The notes under the pieces were generated by a model, which saw nothing but the letters and a program-made list of their open reading frames with translations, searched no databases and was not told the origin of the DNA. The position numbers and the translations under genes are program-made. Shown here one piece after another: positions 57,504-64,000 of a stretch of 64,000 bases of DNA. The DNA comes from Pseudoclavibacter helvolus (GTDB taxonomy: Bacteria > Actinomycetota > Actinomycetes > Actinomycetales > Microbacteriaceae). The stretch spans positions 124,001 to 188,000 of the forward strand of contig NZ_JACHWJ010000001.1 in NCBI RefSeq assembly GCF_014191305.1. Reading direction: 5' to 3'. Numbering within the stretch: position 1 is the stretch's first letter; every line of letters begins with the position of its first letter.

Positions 57504-57549
57504 CCCCGACCAGGGTCTCGAGGAAGGCATGCCTGTAAGCTCGCGCGAA

Positions 57550-57563
57550 AGTATTTAGATACT
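57550..57563. promoter_or_regulatory. Palindrome AGTAT-TTAG-ATACT before the carotenoid operon
   Basis: Perfect 5-bp arms lie in an AT-rich island (57548-57571), unlike the rest of the region, 40 bases before the crtE start. This suggests an operator in the operon promoter, for example for a MarR- or GntR-type regulator. The regulator gene is not in view. Confidence 0.5.
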
Positions 57564-57602
57564 CTTATTGCTAGTCGACCGAGCTAAAGGGAGTGGTGCC
57601 GA

Positions 57603-58724
57603 GTGATTCGTGAGCCTTTGGCGAGCCCCCGTGGCCAGGGTTCGGACTTCGACCTCGCAGCCGAGCAGCTGCTCGAGGTGAGAAGGCGAATCGAGCAGTT
57701 CCTTGACGGCCGGATCCAGGCGGCCAGCGCGATCGATGAGGGACTCGCGACACTCTGGCGCATCACGGCGCGCAGTACCGAGGGTGGCAAGCTCTTCAGG
57801 CCAGCGCTGGTGATCCAGAGTTACCTGTCCTACACGGGCGCCGACGAGGTGCCCGAGGCGGTTCTCGAGCTGGCTACGGCGACCGAGCTGCTGCATCTGG
57901 CGTTCTTGACGCACGACGACGTGATCGACAACGACACGATGCGCCGCGGCGTGCGGAACCTGCTCGGCAGCGTCGAGGAGATCGTCGGCGGCTCAGAGTT
58001 CGACGTCGAGCGAGGCAGCCGCCTCGGACAGGCCGCTGCGATTCTTGTTGGCGATCTACTGCTTTCGGAAGCGCACCTGAGGGTGGCCCGCATCGACCTC
58101 CCGCACGCCATCCGCCTGCGCGTGCTCGACGCTATCGAGCGTGCCCTCGCAGTCTCGGTCGCTGGCGAGTTCAGCGACGTGAGCCTCTCGCTTCGTTCCG
58201 ACCACCCGGCGTTGGCTGAGGTCCTGTCGATGAGTTCGAACAAGACCGCCGCCTACACCGTGCTGCTTCCGCTCCAGCTCGGCTTGATCGCGGCGGGTGG
58301 TGCAGGCCTCGTCGATGCGCGACTCATCGCGCAGTTCTCCGATGCGGCCGGGCTGGCTTTCCAGTTGCAGGATGATCTCTTCGGCGTGTTCGGTGACCAG
58401 CACAAGCTCGGGAAGGCGCCGTACTCGGATATCCGAGAGGGAAAGTTCACGGCGCTCGTCGCTCTTGCCTGCGGGACTCCCGTGTGGGGTGAGCTTCAGC
58501 TACTGCTCGGTGACCCGCTCCTCAGTGAGGTTGACGGTGCAAAGGCACGCGACCTCATCGACGCCTCCGGTTCGCGGGCGGCCGTCGAGCAGGAGCTCGA
58601 GGCCCAGTTCGCGAGGGCGAGGGCGGCGGCGAGCGCTGTTGGTGCCTCTGGCCGTGAGGGAGACAGGAGTCTCGCCGAGATGATGACGCGGCTGCTCATG
58701 CTCCTGGAGAGGCGAACCTCGTGA
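57603..58724 (+). CDS. crtE: Geranylgeranyl diphosphate synthase (polyprenyl synthetase)
   Basis: This 373-residue all-helical prenyltransferase joins IPP to allylic diphosphates. The first aspartate motif is THDDVIDNDTMRRG (about 101-114). The second region is QLQDDLFGVFGD (about 254-265), where the second DDxxD is reduced to DDLFG, as in other actinobacterial CrtE. GTG 57603 has AAGGGAG 9 bases upstream. Product chain length C20 is inferred from the operon (phytoene synthase next). It overlaps crtB by 4 bases. Confidence 0.92.
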   Translation: MIREPLASPRGQGSDFDLAAEQLLEVRRRIEQFLDGRIQAASAIDEGLATLWRITARSTEGGKLFRPALVIQSYLSYTGADEVPEAVLELATATELLHLAFLTHDDVIDNDTMRRGVRNLLGSVEEIVGGSEFDVERGSRLGQAAAILVGDLLLSEAHLRVARIDLPHAIRLRVLDAIERALAVSVAGEFSDVSLSLRSDHPALAEVLSMSSNKTAAYTVLLPLQLGLIAAGGAGLVDARLIAQFSDAAGLAFQLQDDLFGVFGDQHKLGKAPYSDIREGKFTALVALACGTPVWGELQLLLGDPLLSEVDGAKARDLIDASGSRAAVEQELEAQFARARAAASAVGASGREGDRSLAEMMTRLLMLLERRTS

Positions 58725-59590
58725 CCTCCGCGCTTGACCTGTACACCCGGACGGCAGAGAAGTCGGCCGCCGAGGTGATCTTCGCGTACTCGAGCTCGTT
58801 CGGCGCCGCGTCGAGACTGCTCGGGCGTCGCACGGTGAAGCCGGTGCGCAGCATCTATGCGCTTGTTCGGGTGGCCGACGAGATCGTAGACGGCGTTGCC
58901 GCAGTTGCCGGGCTCTCACTTGAGCAGCAGCACGCTGCCCTTGATGGGCTCGAAGCTCAGACGCTCGAAGCCATCGATGCGGGGTTCAGCACGAACCTGG
59001 TCGTGCATGCCTTCGCGGCGACTGCGCGCCGCTGTGGGTTCGGTGCCGAGCTGGTTGTGCCGTTCTTCGCCTCGATGCGCATGGACCTGGAGCCGCGCTC
59101 GCTTGATGTCGAGGAGCAGCGGCGCTACGTCTACGGGTCCGCTGAGGTTGTCGGCCTCATGTGCGTGCGTGTGTTCCTCACGGGTGTTTCACGCACCGCA
59201 GAAGAGCGGGAGCGCATCGACGCGGCAGCGTGCGCGCTTGGTGCAGCGTTCCAGAACGTCAACTTCCTCCGCGATGTGGGCGATGACGCGGACAGACTCG
59301 GCCGGGATTACCTGCCAGTCGAGGGGCTCGAGCCCGGGCCGCTCGACGAGCGCCGCAAGCGCATCTGGCTTGATCGCATCCGTGCAGATCTCGCGACCGC
59401 GGATGCGGGCATTCCGCTGCTTCCCCGCGACTGTCGGCGAGGCGTTGCGCTCGCGAGCGCCCTCTTCTCGGCGCTTGCCGATCGCATCGCGGCGACCCCC
59501 GCAGAGCAGCTGCGCTCGACGCGCGTGAGAGTTCCCAGCGCCGAGAAGGCGCGCATTGCAGCACGAGTCCTTCTGGAGAGACGATCATGA
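58721..59590 (+). CDS. crtB: Phytoene synthase
   Basis: This 289-residue squalene/phytoene synthase joins two GGPP head to head. Motifs are SIYALVRVADEIVDGV (first Asp motif), YVYGSAEVVGLMCVRVF, and AFQNVNFLRDVGDDADRLGR with the second DxxxD motif. GTG start overlaps the crtE stop, and its stop overlaps crtI (ATGA). Confidence 0.94.
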   Translation: MTSALDLYTRTAEKSAAEVIFAYSSSFGAASRLLGRRTVKPVRSIYALVRVADEIVDGVAAVAGLSLEQQHAALDGLEAQTLEAIDAGFSTNLVVHAFAATARRCGFGAELVVPFFASMRMDLEPRSLDVEEQRRYVYGSAEVVGLMCVRVFLTGVSRTAEERERIDAAACALGAAFQNVNFLRDVGDDADRLGRDYLPVEGLEPGPLDERRKRIWLDRIRADLATADAGIPLLPRDCRRGVALASALFSALADRIAATPAEQLRSTRVRVPSAEKARIAARVLLERRS

Positions 59591-61155
59591 GCACTCGCGC
59601 GGTAGTTGTCGGAGCCGGAATGGCGGGTCTCGCCACATCCATCCTCCTGGCTCGGGACGGCTTCGCCGTCACCGTGCTGGAGAAGAACAGCAGGGTCGGC
59701 GGCCGCGCCGGCCTGCTCGAGGTGGACGGGTTCCGCTTTGATACCGGCCCGAGCTGGTATCTCATGCCGAGCGTCTTCGACCACTTCTTCGAGCTCGCGG
59801 GCACCAGCACGGCCGAGCAGCTCGACCTTCGGATGCTTGACCCCGGCTACCGGGTCTTCCCTGAGCCGTCCGGTGCCGGGCCGGCGAGCGACCCGATCTC
59901 GATCCCGTACGGACAGGACGCCGTCCGCAGGCTGGTTGCCGATCTCGAACCCGACGCGCTTCCGGCGTTCGACAACTACCTCGAGACCGCGAGGCGCGCG
60001 ATGGACATGGCGGAAGACGCCTTCCTCTACAACACGTTCAGGAACCCCGTTTCGCTGGTCGGCGAGCGGGTGCGCCGTGAACTGCCCGACCTCCTCACCT
60101 GGCTCACGACCCCGCTCGAGAAGTTCGTCGAGGAGTCCTTTACGCATCCCCTGCTCCGGCAGATCCTCGCCTACCAGGCGGTCTTCCTCGGCACGGACCC
60201 TCGCCGCGCGCCGGCCATCTACCACCTCATGAGCCGCATGGACCTCGTCGAGGGGGTGCAGTACCCCATGGGCGGCTTCACCGCGGTGGTGGATGCCCTA
60301 CACGGCCTCGCGGTCGAGGCAGGGGTCGAGTTCGTGCTCGATGCCGAGGTGACCGGCATCGCCGTGTCGCACGGGTGGAGCAGGGGCGTGCACTGGCGGG
60401 ATGCCGCGGGCGAGCCGCACTTCGAAGACGTTGAGGTCGTCGTCTCGGCGGCCGACTTGCACCACACGGAGACGCAGTTGCTGCCGGCGCGCTACCGCAG
60501 CTATCCGGAGCGCGTGTGGAAGAAGACCGATTCCGGACCGGGTGCCGTGCTGGTCATGCTGGGGGTCACGGGGGAGCTGCCGGCTCTGCCGCACCATTCG
60601 CTGTTGCTCACGAAGGAGTGGGGCGAGAACTTCGACGCCATCTTCGGCGAGGGCGTGGCGCTGCCAGACCCGGTGTCCATCTATGTCTGCAAGCCCAGCG
60701 CAACCGATCCTGAGGTTGCGCCGGAGGGGCACGAGAACCTGTTCCTGCTCATCCCCGTGAAGGGCGACGCCAGCATCGGCGGGGGAGGCGCTGACGGCGC
60801 GGGGGATGCAGAGGTTGAGCGCATCGCCGACCTCGCGATCGCGCAGCTCGCCGAGTGGACGGTTGCTCCAGACCTCGCCGACCGGATCGTCGTGCGGAGC
60901 ACGCTCGGGCCCGCTGACTTCGTGCGCGACTACAACTCGTGGCGCGGCGGCATTCTCGGCCCGTCCCACGAGCTCGCGCAGTCCGCCATGCTCCGCGCTG
61001 GCAACGCCTCGCCGAAGGTGAAGGGGCTGTATTACGCTGGCGCCACCGTTAACCCAGGTGTCGGCGTGCCGATGTGTCTCATCAGCGCCGAGCTCGTGCT
61101 CAAGCACGTACGTGGCGATCGCAGCCCCGGTCCGCTTGGGGTCGAGCGACGGTGA
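59587..61155 (+). CDS. crtI: Phytoene desaturase
   Basis: This 522-residue FAD enzyme introduces double bonds into phytoene. The dinucleotide fold is VVGAGMAGLATSILLARDGF followed by VGGRAGLLEVDGFRFDTGPS and WYLMPSVFDHFFELAG, the actinobacterial CrtI pattern. The C-terminal FAD contact is LYYAGATVNPGVGVPMCLIS. The number of desaturation steps cannot be read from sequence; four steps would give lycopene. Confidence 0.94.
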   Translation: MSTRAVVVGAGMAGLATSILLARDGFAVTVLEKNSRVGGRAGLLEVDGFRFDTGPSWYLMPSVFDHFFELAGTSTAEQLDLRMLDPGYRVFPEPSGAGPASDPISIPYGQDAVRRLVADLEPDALPAFDNYLETARRAMDMAEDAFLYNTFRNPVSLVGERVRRELPDLLTWLTTPLEKFVEESFTHPLLRQILAYQAVFLGTDPRRAPAIYHLMSRMDLVEGVQYPMGGFTAVVDALHGLAVEAGVEFVLDAEVTGIAVSHGWSRGVHWRDAAGEPHFEDVEVVVSAADLHHTETQLLPARYRSYPERVWKKTDSGPGAVLVMLGVTGELPALPHHSLLLTKEWGENFDAIFGEGVALPDPVSIYVCKPSATDPEVAPEGHENLFLLIPVKGDASIGGGGADGAGDAEVERIADLAIAQLAEWTVAPDLADRIVVRSTLGPADFVRDYNSWRGGILGPSHELAQSAMLRAGNASPKVKGLYYAGATVNPGVGVPMCLISAELVLKHVRGDRSPGPLGVERR

Positions 61156-61844
61156 CCGTCGCGACCGTCCACCTCTGGGGCACCGGCAGTGCGAGCGCCG
61201 GCCTCGGGTTGACGGCGAAGACGACCGTGCAGCTCCTCGGGCGTCATCGTCCGGAGGGCCTTCGTTTCGCGCGGATCCTGGGCACCGCGAAATCGACGAG
61301 CTTCTCTTCCCGCGACGCCGACCTCGGCCACTGGGCGCTTGTCTCCTCCTGGGAGTCCCGCGGAGCGGCTGACGCGTTCGACCGCGGGCCGCTTGTGGCC
61401 GCGTGGGATGCTCACTCGCGCGAGCGTGTCAGGGTGCGGATGCGCCCTATCCGCTCCGTGGGGCTGTGGGGCGGACGTGACCCGTTCAGCCCGGCGGATG
61501 CCGAGGCCGTGGAGGGCCAGCGCATTGCCGTCATCACCCGAGCCCGCATCCGCCCGTCCGCACTGTGGCGATTCTCCGGGACGGTGCCGCCCATCGCCGC
61601 CGAGCTCATGACGGCGCGCTCACGCGGCCTCGGGCTGGCCTTCGGGATGGGTGAGCTTCCCGCGGGGCTGCTCGGGACCTTCAGCCTCTGGGAGTCGGCC
61701 CCCGCGCTCCGGGACTTCATGGGCGGTGCGCAGGCGCACAGGGCCGCGATGCGCGACAGCCGGGCGGGCGGCTGGTTCGCGGAGGAGCTCTTCGCCCGCT
61801 TCGCCGTGGACGCAGTCGAGGGCTGGACAGACGCTGCGGCGTGA
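61152..61844 (+). CDS. crtA: CrtA-like carotenoid monooxygenase (spheroidene monooxygenase family)
   Basis: This 230-residue protein resembles spheroidene monooxygenase, which adds a keto group at C-2 of acyclic carotenoids in purple bacteria. Matching blocks are RFARILGTAKSTSFSSRDAD, SWESRGAADAFDRGPLVAAW, IAVITRARIR, LGLAFGMGELPAGLLGTFSL and GGWFAEELFARF. The GTG start overlaps the crtI stop, so it is clearly part of the operon. CrtA in actinobacterial clusters is uncommon to my knowledge. A role in another oxidation of the same pigment is possible. Confidence 0.78.
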   Translation: MTVATVHLWGTGSASAGLGLTAKTTVQLLGRHRPEGLRFARILGTAKSTSFSSRDADLGHWALVSSWESRGAADAFDRGPLVAAWDAHSRERVRVRMRPIRSVGLWGGRDPFSPADAEAVEGQRIAVITRARIRPSALWRFSGTVPPIAAELMTARSRGLGLAFGMGELPAGLLGTFSLWESAPALRDFMGGAQAHRAAMRDSRAGGWFAEELFARFAVDAVEGWTDAAA

Positions 61845-61926
61845 GATCACCCGAGCCGACGCCGCGAAGAGCCAGCACGACCGAAGACGTAGATCCAGAG
61901 CCACGACCGAGAGGAACGGACTCAAG

Positions 61927-62766
61927 ATGACCGCCATCACACGACGACTCATGTGGGTGACCCTTGCCGCAGGCATGTTCGTGCAGAGCCTGTTCGCCTT
62001 CACGGGCGGGGGCACCGTCCCGCTGACGATCGCCAGTGTCGCGCTCCTCGCCGCGACCGGGGTGCTGCACGCGTGGGCGACGCGTGGCCCGAAGTTCGCG
62101 TCCGTGCTCCTCGCGGCGGCCGCCATTGGCTTCTTCGCCGAAGTTGTCGGCGTCGCGACCAGCTTCCCGTTCGGCCAGTACATCTACACGCCGTCGCTCG
62201 GTTTCTCCCTGTTCGAGGTGCCGCTCATCGTGCCCCTCGCCTGGGTCACGATCGCGTACCCGGCGGTCATCATCGCCAGGCGACTCGTCGGTACGACTCC
62301 GGGGATGCTCCGGCGCGTCGCACGTGTCGCCGTCGCGGCCTGGGCGCTCACCGCCTGGGATGTGTTCCTCGACCCGCAGATGGTCGACTCGGGGCACTGG
62401 GGTTGGAAGCACCCGGATCCGGGCATCCCAGGCGTCGACGGCATCCCGCTGACGAACTTCCTCGGCTGGTACCTCGTCTCGCTCATCATCTGCGGACTCA
62501 TCGACGCCGTGGCGGCGCGCTCGCGGGAGGTTGACGGCGCCCCTGGCGATGCCGTCCCCTTCACGGTCTACCTGTGGACCTACGCGACCTGCGTCGTCGG
62601 CAACCTGACCTTCTTCGAGCGGCCGAGCGTGGCCCTCGTCGGTGGCTTCATCATGGGGGCCGTCGCGGTTCCGCTTGTTGTGGTGTTGCTCCGCGACTGG
62701 CGGGCGCGCCGGGCGTCTGGTCCCCTCGTGGGGGCGGACGCGCGCAGCGAGGAATCTTCGCGATGA
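61927..62766 (+). CDS. cruF: Carotenoid biosynthesis membrane protein (DUF422, CruF-like hydratase)
   Basis: This 279-residue membrane protein has about seven helices. The DUF422 hallmark AWDVFLDPQMVDSGHWGWKH (about 142-161), then GIPLTNFLGWYLVS, is complete, as is FGQYIYTPSLGFSLFEVPLI upstream. CruF-type enzymes add water at C-1 of acyclic carotenoid ends, giving a tertiary alcohol, in bacterioruberin and deinoxanthin pathways. An 82-bp gap separates it from crtA, and its stop overlaps the next gene (ATGA). Confidence 0.8.
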   Translation: MTAITRRLMWVTLAAGMFVQSLFAFTGGGTVPLTIASVALLAATGVLHAWATRGPKFASVLLAAAAIGFFAEVVGVATSFPFGQYIYTPSLGFSLFEVPLIVPLAWVTIAYPAVIIARRLVGTTPGMLRRVARVAVAAWALTAWDVFLDPQMVDSGHWGWKHPDPGIPGVDGIPLTNFLGWYLVSLIICGLIDAVAARSREVDGAPGDAVPFTVYLWTYATCVVGNLTFFERPSVALVGGFIMGAVAVPLVVVLLRDWRARRASGPLVGADARSEESSR

Positions 62767-64000
62767 GCCGCGTTGTCGTGATCGGCGCGGGAGTCGGTGG
62801 GCTCGCCGCGGCGGCACGCCTCGCGTCCCTCGGGCACGACGTCACGGTGCTTGAGCAGGCCGACACGATTGGCGGCAAGCTCGCAACACTCGAGCACGAT
62901 GGCTTCCTCTTCGACACGGGGCCGTCACTCGTGACGATGCCGTACGTCTTCACTGAGCTCTTTGCCGAGACGGGGGCGCCGCTCGAGACCGTGCTAGAGC
63001 TCCGACGACTCGACGTCGCCTGCAGGTACCGCTTCGCCGACGGGACAGAGCTCGACATGCCGGGTCGAATCGAGGAGATCCCTGCTGCGTTGGATGCGGC
63101 GCTCGGTTCCGGCGCGGGCGCGCAGTGGTCGCGCTTCCTCGAACGCTCGGAGCGCGTGTGGGACATCGCCCGTGGTCCCTTCCTGGAGTCGCCCATCGAT
63201 GCAGCCGGCATCGCGACGCTCGCGGCGAACCCGCTCTCGCTTGCCCGGGTGGCCCCGTGGCTGAGCCTGCGCGGATTCGGTCGACAGGACCTCGCCGATG
63301 ACCGGCTGCGCGCCCTGCTCGACCGCTACGCCACCTACACCGGCTCTGATCCGAGGCGTGCCCCCTCAGCGCTCGCGACGGTGCCATACGCGGAGCAGGC
63401 CTACGGGTCCTGGTACGTGCAAGGTGGCCTGTGGCGTCTTGGTGCCGCTATCGCGGACCGTGCGACCGAACTCGGCGCGCGCATCCGCACCGGGGTGAGC
63501 GTGACGCGCATCCTGCAGGACGGAACCAGGGTCGCGGGTGTCGAGACGGCGGACGGCGAGCGCATCGCGGCGGACATCGTCGTCGCGAACGCGGACGCGC
63601 AGACCGTCTACGGGGAACTGCTGCGAAGCGAGGGCGCCAGGCGTGCGGCCAGGGATCACGCGAAGCTCGACCCGTCGCTCTCCGGCTTCGTCCTGCTGCT
63701 GGCGCTCGACGGCCTCGATGGGGCCACGGTCGACCACGGCGAGCAGGCCCACCACCGGGTGCTCTTCGCAGAGGACTACGACGCCGAGTTCGACGCGGTC
63801 TTCGGCGTCGGAACCCAGTCGGGGTCGGGGCCGAAGCCCGTCGAGCGGCCGACGATCTACATCTCAGCGCCGAATGACCCGGAGACGGTTCCGGGGCCGG
63901 GCAGCGCCGCGTGGTTCGTGCTTGTCAACGCGCCGCGTCACGATCCTGAGCACGGCGTCGACTGGGATGCACCAGGGCTTGCTGAGCGCTACGCGGCATC
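62763..64000 (+). CDS. crtD: Carotenoid desaturase of the CrtI/CrtD family, 3' end outside the window
   Basis: The frame from ATG 62763 stays open to the window edge (412 codons). The FAD fold is VVIGAGVGGLAAAARLASLG, with TIGGKLATLEHDGFLFDTGP and then SLVTMPYVFTELFAETGAPL. TGSDPRRAPSALATVPYAEQ is the family mid-motif. It is a second desaturase besides crtI, and the N-terminus fits CrtD-type (C-3,4 desaturation of 1-hydroxy carotenoids). The choice between CrtD and other CrtI relatives rests on operon context. The C-terminal FAD motif lies outside the window. Confidence 0.82.
   Translation, partial: MSRVVVIGAGVGGLAAAARLASLGHDVTVLEQADTIGGKLATLEHDGFLFDTGPSLVTMPYVFTELFAETGAPLETVLELRRLDVACRYRFADGTELDMPGRIEEIPAALDAALGSGAGAQWSRFLERSERVWDIARGPFLESPIDAAGIATLAANPLSLARVAPWLSLRGFGRQDLADDRLRALLDRYATYTGSDPRRAPSALATVPYAEQAYGSWYVQGGLWRLGAAIADRATELGARIRTGVSVTRILQDGTRVAGVETADGERIAADIVVANADAQTVYGELLRSEGARRAARDHAKLDPSLSGFVLLLALDGLDGATVDHGEQAHHRVLFAEDYDAEFDAVFGVGTQSGSGPKPVERPTIYISAPNDPETVPGPGSAAWFVLVNAPRHDPEHGVDWDAPGLAERYAA

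Follow-up and report, generated by a model that had tools for sequence, protein, structure and literature searches.

A conserved six-gene operon of Pseudoclavibacter helvolus predicted to direct synthesis of an acyclic, C-2-oxygenated C40 carotenoid

We analyzed a 64,000-nucleotide stretch of the Pseudoclavibacter helvolus genome (G000:C1:124001-188000, hereafter the window; the source is a 3.84-Mb draft in 12 contigs, 97.2% complete), the end of which holds a carotenoid (crt) operon whose predicted product is likely an acyclic pigment hydroxylated at C-1 and oxygenated at C-2. Six genes lie on the + strand in the order crtE-crtB-crtI-crtA-cruF-crtD. These encode a polyprenyl (geranylgeranyl diphosphate) synthase (crtE, 57603-58724; PF00348, E = 2.4e-42, 145 bits), a phytoene synthase (crtB, 58721-59590; PF00494, E = 4.5e-39, 135 bits), a phytoene desaturase of the Microbacteriaceae type (crtI, 59587-61155; TIGR02734, 532 bits, cut-off 238), a 230-residue putative CrtA-family carotenoid C-2 oxygenase, either hydroxylase or ketolase (crtA-like, 61152-61844; NF045923, E = 1.9e-33), a 279-residue putative carotenoid 1,2-hydratase (cruF-like, 61927-62766; PF04240, E = 1.5e-35), and a putative 1-hydroxycarotenoid 3,4-desaturase (crtD-like, 62763-64313; NF045637, 349.8 bits), the gene for which is cut by the window at 64000. 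The initial annotation had named these six genes in this order, and the family searches agreed with it at each position. Four of the five junctions are 4-base overlaps and the crtA-cruF junction is an 82-base gap; cruF and crtD overlap, with no glycosyltransferase gene between the two. Beyond position 64000, crtD was found to stop at 64313, 313 bases past the window end, and is followed by a convergent DUF1844 gene (64390-64914, - strand) and then by infC, so that the operon is complete at six genes. The elongase, cyclase, or glycosyltransferase gene that had been named as a possibility after crtD does not lie there. A promoter and terminator scan downstream of crtD found nothing.

The spheroidene monooxygenase model NF045923 was the only match of the CrtA-like protein (115.7 bits, under the cut-off of 300; positive control Roseobacter litoralis CrtA, 369.9 bits), with the alignment covering profile positions 21-221 of 226, and no Pfam model matched. 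Across 15 aligned CrtA rows, including two from purple bacteria (taken from plasmids), residues H196, E211, E212, L213, P111, F112, and T129-A131 were invariant, and the EEL.AR motif together with H196 was common to the window protein and the two purple CrtA. Full-length homology plus these family-wide invariant residues place the protein in the CrtA superfamily (CrtA and its CrtA-OH relatives), in line with the earlier assignment of the protein starting at 61152 to the CrtA family. The 279-residue protein, previously proposed as a CruF relative, passed PF04240 (123.5 bits, gathering cut-off 25) and scored under the CruF equivalog cut-offs (TIGR03460, 102.9 vs 154.7; NF045693, 73.7 vs 400). 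For the CrtD-like protein, NF045637 was the best of all models, yet its score was under the cut-off of 580; the protein passed the subfamily model TIGR02734 (341 bits vs cut-off 238).

We then judged the spread of CrtA in 99 relatives (10 genomes of the same genus, 50 of the same family, each from another genus, and 39 of other families), and found strong matches in 5 of the 10 genus genomes (P. helvolus included), 0 of the 50 other Microbacteriaceae, and 7 of the 39 other-family genomes; the match in G002, of the same genus (E = 4.8e-4, 73 residues), was too weak to count. The four other crtA-bearing Pseudoclavibacter genomes hold the identical six genes in identical order, which is therefore more than chance, and their CrtA proteins are 82-88% identical to that of the window. 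The nearest named CrtA loci are those of Pseudoclavibacter sp. RFBB5 (87% identity) and AY1H1 (81%). Ratios of nonsynonymous to synonymous substitution rates (dN/dS) against the window genes were 0.04-0.09 for CrtE, CrtB, and CrtI, 0.105-0.114 for CrtA, 0.08-0.09 for CruF, and 0.10-0.13 for CrtD. The operon is real, conserved, and intact. These values bear on a reading in which CrtA is inactive or of minor effect and the pigment is C-1 hydroxylated and 3,4-didehydro with no C-2 oxygen (demethyl-spirilloxanthin type, C40H56O2). Although another genus has cruF, a glycosyltransferase gene, and crtD without crtA, and 13 of the 80 best CrtA loci described below have crtA with none of these three genes downstream, such a silent CrtA seems quite improbable given that crtA is under purifying selection, keeps all the residues that are invariant in rows including the two purple CrtA, and, in each of the five crtA-bearing genus genomes, either overlaps crtI or adjoins it directly.

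An acyclic end product and hydroxylation at C-1 had both been predicted, and both predictions are well supported, the latter through the presence of the CruF relative. The former is favored by a single crtB (the sole PF00494 match found in the draft genome), by the lack of matches to the heterodimeric lycopene cyclase model TIGR03462 and to a CrtEb-like elongase, and by the finding of only short Lycopene_cycl (PF05834) matches, namely four partial ones of 96-177 bases, two of them barely over the cut-off, to a model that is unspecific and also matches controls such as E. coli. TIGR03462 gave 0 matches in the window genome and in the other four crtA-bearing Pseudoclavibacter; across 60 relatives the model had matches in 31, made up of 22 of 27 other genomes of the family, 8 of 23 genomes of other families, and a single one of the 10 genus genomes, G002, which has no crtA operon. 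For the elongase we used a CrtEb probe because the UbiA search (PF01040) was not decisive, giving two matches per genus genome and three in G005 and G009, the third weak. The probe, which works in part (of four other crt loci of the family, it detects CrtEb near crtI in L180 and L183 and gives no match in L179 or L181), had no match in the five crtA-bearing genomes and hit a 69-residue piece in G003 only. The combination that marks a C50 cluster, a heterodimeric cyclase with CrtEb, was accordingly not found in the window genome as drafted. The rhodopsin model PF01036 had no match in the 10 genus genomes, nor in the controls. Two sets of genomes count on the other side. TIGR03462 is likewise missing from the genus genomes G003, G005, G008, and G009, none of which has crtA, and its absence therefore does not set the crtA-bearing species apart; three of these four are without a full CrtI and G005 has a CrtI of another type. 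Moreover, the crtA-module genomes G063 and G081, of another family, do carry TIGR03462 cyclases, and the module alone therefore does not imply an acyclic product. G005 (L182) was observed to hold another crtE-crtI-crtB set, 31-36% identical, which groups with the cluster type and not with the family type.

We infer the following reactions and modified ends for the P. helvolus pathway. CrtE, CrtB, and CrtI would produce lycopene, CruF would hydrate the C-1,2 bond of one end or of both, CrtD would desaturate at C-3,4, and C-2 would be oxygenated by the CrtA-family enzyme. The most likely aglycone would be of the oscillol type (1,1',2,2'-tetrahydroxy-3,4,3',4'-tetradehydro, C40H56O4, 13 conjugated double bonds), with the 2-keto form (C40H52O4) a close second. 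Counting from lycopene (C40H56), the product of two hydrations plus two desaturations would be C40H56O2 (568.43), and that of two further C-2 oxygenations would be C40H56O4 (600.42) as hydroxyls or C40H52O4 (596.39) as ketones, a difference of 4 Da. On balance, we consider it probable that the operon directs synthesis of an acyclic C40 carotenoid of the oscillol type, possibly glycosylated and acylated, and that it arose by a module swap. Among the open-access papers listed, none gave a carotenoid structure for Pseudoclavibacter and none an experimentally tested actinobacterial CrtA, and the present CrtA relative offers a testable candidate for C-2 oxygenation in Actinomycetota. A Raman band at ~1503 cm-1 in single cells from clover has been read as a linear carotenoid with 13 double bonds, e.g., an oscillol glycoside or diketone (PMC12093961, in its available text); a link of these cells to the Pseudoclavibacter clade is only a thought.

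We further examined the chemistry that the CrtA-like protein may perform. Its predicted structure is a two-repeat ferredoxin-like (alpha+beta) barrel (predicted local distance difference test score 87.5; predicted template modeling score 0.86). The first five PDB matches in Foldseek were an anthrone-oxidase-like protein and putative monooxygenases (template modeling score [TM] 0.37-0.41 by query), and the next was the heme enzyme aldoxime dehydratase (TM 0.51-0.56; 3a17, E = 1.2e-7). Searched by sequence against solved structures, the single protein had no match at E 10 and the CrtA profile had one chance match only (E = 0.4). The modeled fold resembles heme barrel enzymes, and a putative heme ligand is H196, which is invariant in the 15-row alignment and in one of 40 rows. 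For purple CrtA, a monooxygenase with 5-coordinate heme is described that forms a ketone by hydroxylating C-2 twice (PMC10604819, available text), and the flavobacterial CrtA-OH of Nonlabens is described as a 2-hydroxylase (PMC11855829, likewise). For the window enzyme we modestly favor a C-2 hydroxylase over a ketolase because of the NF045923 score, the CruG-like partner in its relatives, and the five hydroxyls reported for sioxanthin (PMC10298575, available text). The initial annotation had instead proposed a possible C-2 keto group; a true 2-ketolase would give an acyclic 1-hydroxy-2-keto (2,2'-diketo) carotenoid. This diketo product we take to be of the phillipsiaxanthin type. We regard the ketolase as a possible but less probable reading: the spheroidene monooxygenase model is the only family match, but the score of 115.7 bits stands far below the cut-off of 300 and the 369.9 bits of Roseobacter CrtA; the purple enzyme accepts a broad range of substrates and produces 2-keto ends (PMC10604819, as far as its available text goes), and an approximately unbiased (AU) test did not reject a clade of Pseudoclavibacter and purple CrtA (p = 0.117), whereas the free tree put the window protein among actinobacterial rows, 12.7 log units better. 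Likewise, no glycosyltransferase is linked to the operon, which leaves one reason fewer to expect a 2-hydroxyl, yet one glycosyltransferase from the clusters of relatives scores best to CruG.

This cluster glycosyltransferase (L029) matched CruG (NF045692) with E = 4e-41 and 141 bits (cut-off 600; HpnB 119.5), a likeness to a 2'-O-glycosyltransferase that fits a 2-hydroxyl. With L029 as query, all 10 genus genomes gave some match at E 0.001; matches between E 1e-22 and 4e-36, with identities of 36-41% over the main pieces, occurred only in the five crtA-bearing genomes, and the best match in the five crtA-less ones was 9e-8. The P. helvolus relative, P0004, is a CruG/HpnB-like glycosyltransferase encoded on another contig (G000:C3:354715-356046; L220:8716-10047). 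In a back-search over the 99 relatives, P0004 matched in 36; matches at E <= 1.3e-15 came from the five crtA-bearing Pseudoclavibacter and twelve other-family genomes, all twelve of the latter in loci with further crt genes, and no other genome of the family matched better than 3e-6. A PF01553 (PlsC-like) acyltransferase gene directly precedes the P0004-type gene in 5 of 5 crtA-bearing Pseudoclavibacter, with a 4-base overlap in the window genome. P0004 is best described as a candidate pigment glycosyltransferase, and this divergent enzyme and the adjoining acyltransferase may glycosylate and acylate the pigment. Several points count against such a role: the HpnB score of P0004 (95.5 bits, cut-off 379) exceeds its CruG score (72.7 bits, cut-off 600), both under the cut-offs; the protein is divergent and has no settled place in the tree; the back-search scored at most 17 candidates per genome; and the association with crtA is confounded if the five species form one clade, as the trees suggest. 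In addition, L273 and L276 (two genomes of one genus) have cruF, a glycosyltransferase gene, and crtD without crtA, so that a glycosyltransferase does not prove a 2-hydroxyl, and we dropped it as proof. L274, L275, and L277 have a glycosyltransferase gene and no crtA match, their stretches being cut by a contig end or holding no cruF or crtD. P0004 carries a low-complexity insert with ETS repeats at about residues 134-190, its orthologues in the five species range from about 406 to 544 residues (estimated starts), and its dN/dS (0.21-0.28) is higher than that of the crt genes. A small conserved membrane-type protein with no Pfam match (L220:7396-7947) is encoded immediately before the acyltransferase-glycosyltransferase pair in 5 of 5 crtA-bearing Pseudoclavibacter.

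A scan of species genomes with the 15-row CrtA alignment returned at least 569 relatives among at least 595 pattern matches, of which the best 80 were analyzed; all 80 records are titled Actinomycetota, some doubtfully. The available text of PMC10604819 and PMC11855829 presents CrtA as confined to purple bacteria and CrtA-OH as flavobacterial, although annotations of crtA exist for Micromonospora genomes (PMC5765111, available text). The order crtA, cruF, glycosyltransferase, crtD on one strand was found at 49 of the 80 loci, including those of Kineosporia babensis (L047), Nocardioides sp. 1609 (L040), Gordonia sp. (L063), and Ca. Planktophila lacus (L107); 13 loci (12 titled Geodermatophilus or Blastococcus) have none of the three genes downstream of crtA, 2 loci, each from Pseudoclavibacter, run crtA-cruF-crtD and lack the glycosyltransferase, 13 contigs were too short to tell, and 3 show another order. 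The module genes are not always adjacent, since cruF lies downstream of crtA at 60 loci and starts within 600 bases of it at 49 of these 60. An upstream stretch of 2 kb or more was available for 70 of the 80 loci; of these, the two Pseudoclavibacter alone have crtI immediately before crtA, and two Gordonia have crtE in that position. The window operon shares with this actinobacterial module the order and common strand of CrtA, CruF, and CrtD, and differs in having no glycosyltransferase gene between cruF and crtD and in having crtEBI directly upstream.

Phylogenetic analyses bear on how this arrangement arose. The CrtI of the window has 45-64% identity with full-length CrtI proteins of Microbacteriaceae and 30-33% with those encoded in the clusters of five crtA-bearing genomes from outside the family. 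In a quick CrtI/CrtD tree of 72 rows (20 cluster loci chosen from 86, and 26 family-type rows, five from other families; support by the Shimodaira-Hasegawa-like approximate likelihood ratio test only), it falls within a clade of nine rows, all Microbacteriaceae (support 99), adjoining G002 of the same genus (support 85). CrtE groups with Microbacteriaceae CrtE (100) and CrtB lies in the same deep clade as Microbacteriaceae CrtB (100), while the window CrtD is sister to Nocardioides/Gordonia CrtD (100) and CruF groups with Nocardioidaceae/Gordonia CruF (99). These results suggest that crtA-cruF-crtD from a different actinobacterial lineage became attached to a crtEBI block of the Microbacteriaceae type; in the direction and order that we infer for this swap, the module would have taken the place of the C50 genes (cyclase subunits and elongase), with the operon placed at the sseB|DUF1844 junction. 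The operon is thus probably a chimera between two actinobacterial sources. The chimeric route of the initial annotation stands in this general sense of mixed origin and falls as regards the implied purple-bacterial source of CrtA, CrtA-CruF-CrtD being common in Actinomycetota. A purple origin was set aside, as the closest relatives outside the genus by identity are actinobacterial, many of them beside cruF and crtD; it is not the simplest reading, although the AU test, taken by itself, gives no rejection.

Certain placements run counter to this account. The CrtE branch is long (2.0), and the deep clades that hold Microbacteriaceae CrtB and CrtI also take in the Nocardioides and Gordonia proteins (for CrtI, 2 of the 15 rows from clusters). 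An AU test did not reject a CrtA clade with Nocardioidaceae/Gordonia rows (p = 0.383) any more than the purple one, and the rows compared include no Bacteroidota CrtA-OH; since the place of CrtA is unsettled, its joint transfer with CruF and CrtD follows from gene order only. Transfer of the three genes together from a Nocardioides/Gordonia-like donor therefore appears supported in part, for CruF and CrtD and not for CrtA. The operon sits between sseB and DUF1844, which adjoin with no crt genes between them in G002, G003, and G010; in G008, G009, G011, and G012, 2.5-3 kb separate the two with no crtE, crtB, or crtI match, and in G005 the 6.5 kb of contig remaining after sseB hold no DUF1844 or infC match. 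The three crt-free junctions, the long CrtE branch, and the single crtB in the genome would also fit an acquisition of all six genes from outside instead of a foreign module joining native crtEBI, but this seems unlikely in view of the CrtI position inside the family clade next to G002, the grouping of CrtE with Microbacteriaceae, and the restriction of crtI directly before crtA to the two Pseudoclavibacter among those 70 loci. A module swap would be a clear example of how the class of a carotenoid pathway can change through its terminal genes with the core kept. More tentatively, a clade within a C50-carotenoid family may have exchanged its crt tail genes for a foreign C-2-oxygenating module and so come to make an acyl-glycosylated C40 pigment of the oscillol type, in which case its CrtA and many others in Actinomycetota, including those of freshwater Nanopelagicales, might be C-2 hydroxylases of acyclic ends.

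We also compared the operon with known systems. The Microbacteriaceae C50 cluster (L180, L183) shares the crtEBI block, and differs in its cyclase subunits and CrtEb elongase, which were not found in the window genome. The sioxanthin pathway of Salinispora is likewise actinobacterial and leads to a C40 carotenoid whose psi end is modified. Sioxanthin, whose five hydroxyls are presumably one more than a hexoside leaves free, has one aryl end, and therefore a cyclase and an aromatase act in Salinispora; in the window genome no cyclase was found, and CrtU was not searched for. The flavobacterial myxol cluster of Nonlabens spongiae also combines CruF, CrtD, and CrtA-type psi-end enzymes, but is described as having CrtY and CrtZ and a monocyclic product (PMC11855829, available text). 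The purple spheroidenone / 2,2'-diketospirilloxanthin pathway resembles the operon in its CrtA and CrtD homologues and acyclic product, and differs in having CrtC in place of CruF and in methylation by CrtF (PMC10604819, available text), with the crt genes beside bch genes (L035, L036). The predicted aglycone is the same as in the oscillol glycosides of Thermomicrobium roseum and Gemmatimonas (PMC2615216, PMC8342508, available text); for T. roseum the gene for 2,2'-hydroxylation was reported as not yet identified, and the available text of that paper contains no CrtA.

Upstream of crtE (57504-57602, + strand), an alignment of the five regions showed a block, AAGTANTTAGATACTCTTATTGCTAG (57549-57574), that is almost invariant across the five species and could be a promoter or operator, and an AGGGAG resembling a ribosome-binding site that is kept in all five. 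Elsewhere among the CrtA loci, the stretches examined around crtA in twelve of Geodermatophilus/Blastococcus (L054, L057, L062, L073, L089, L092, L095, L097, L104, L108, L111, and L113) gave no match to any other crt gene. Contigs of metagenome-assembled genomes (MAGs) titled Bifidobacterium breve bear crtA (L055, L070, L093, L100, and L110), and the titles look wrong; L070, L093, and L110 have the full crtA-cruF-glycosyltransferase-crtD order, much like freshwater Nanopelagicales. Pond MAGs titled Streptomycetaceae (L078, L079, and L102), also doubtfully, have a Nanopelagicales-like crt cluster, and the CrtE and CrtB of L078 group with the MAG locus L074. Viral contigs gave 29 pattern matches to the CrtA search and no relative. 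Finally, a Deinococcus taeanensis plasmid holds a lone CrtA relative (L033:7833-8618; NF045923, 180.9 bits), annotated as hypothetical, with response regulators and PAS-domain proteins as its neighbors.

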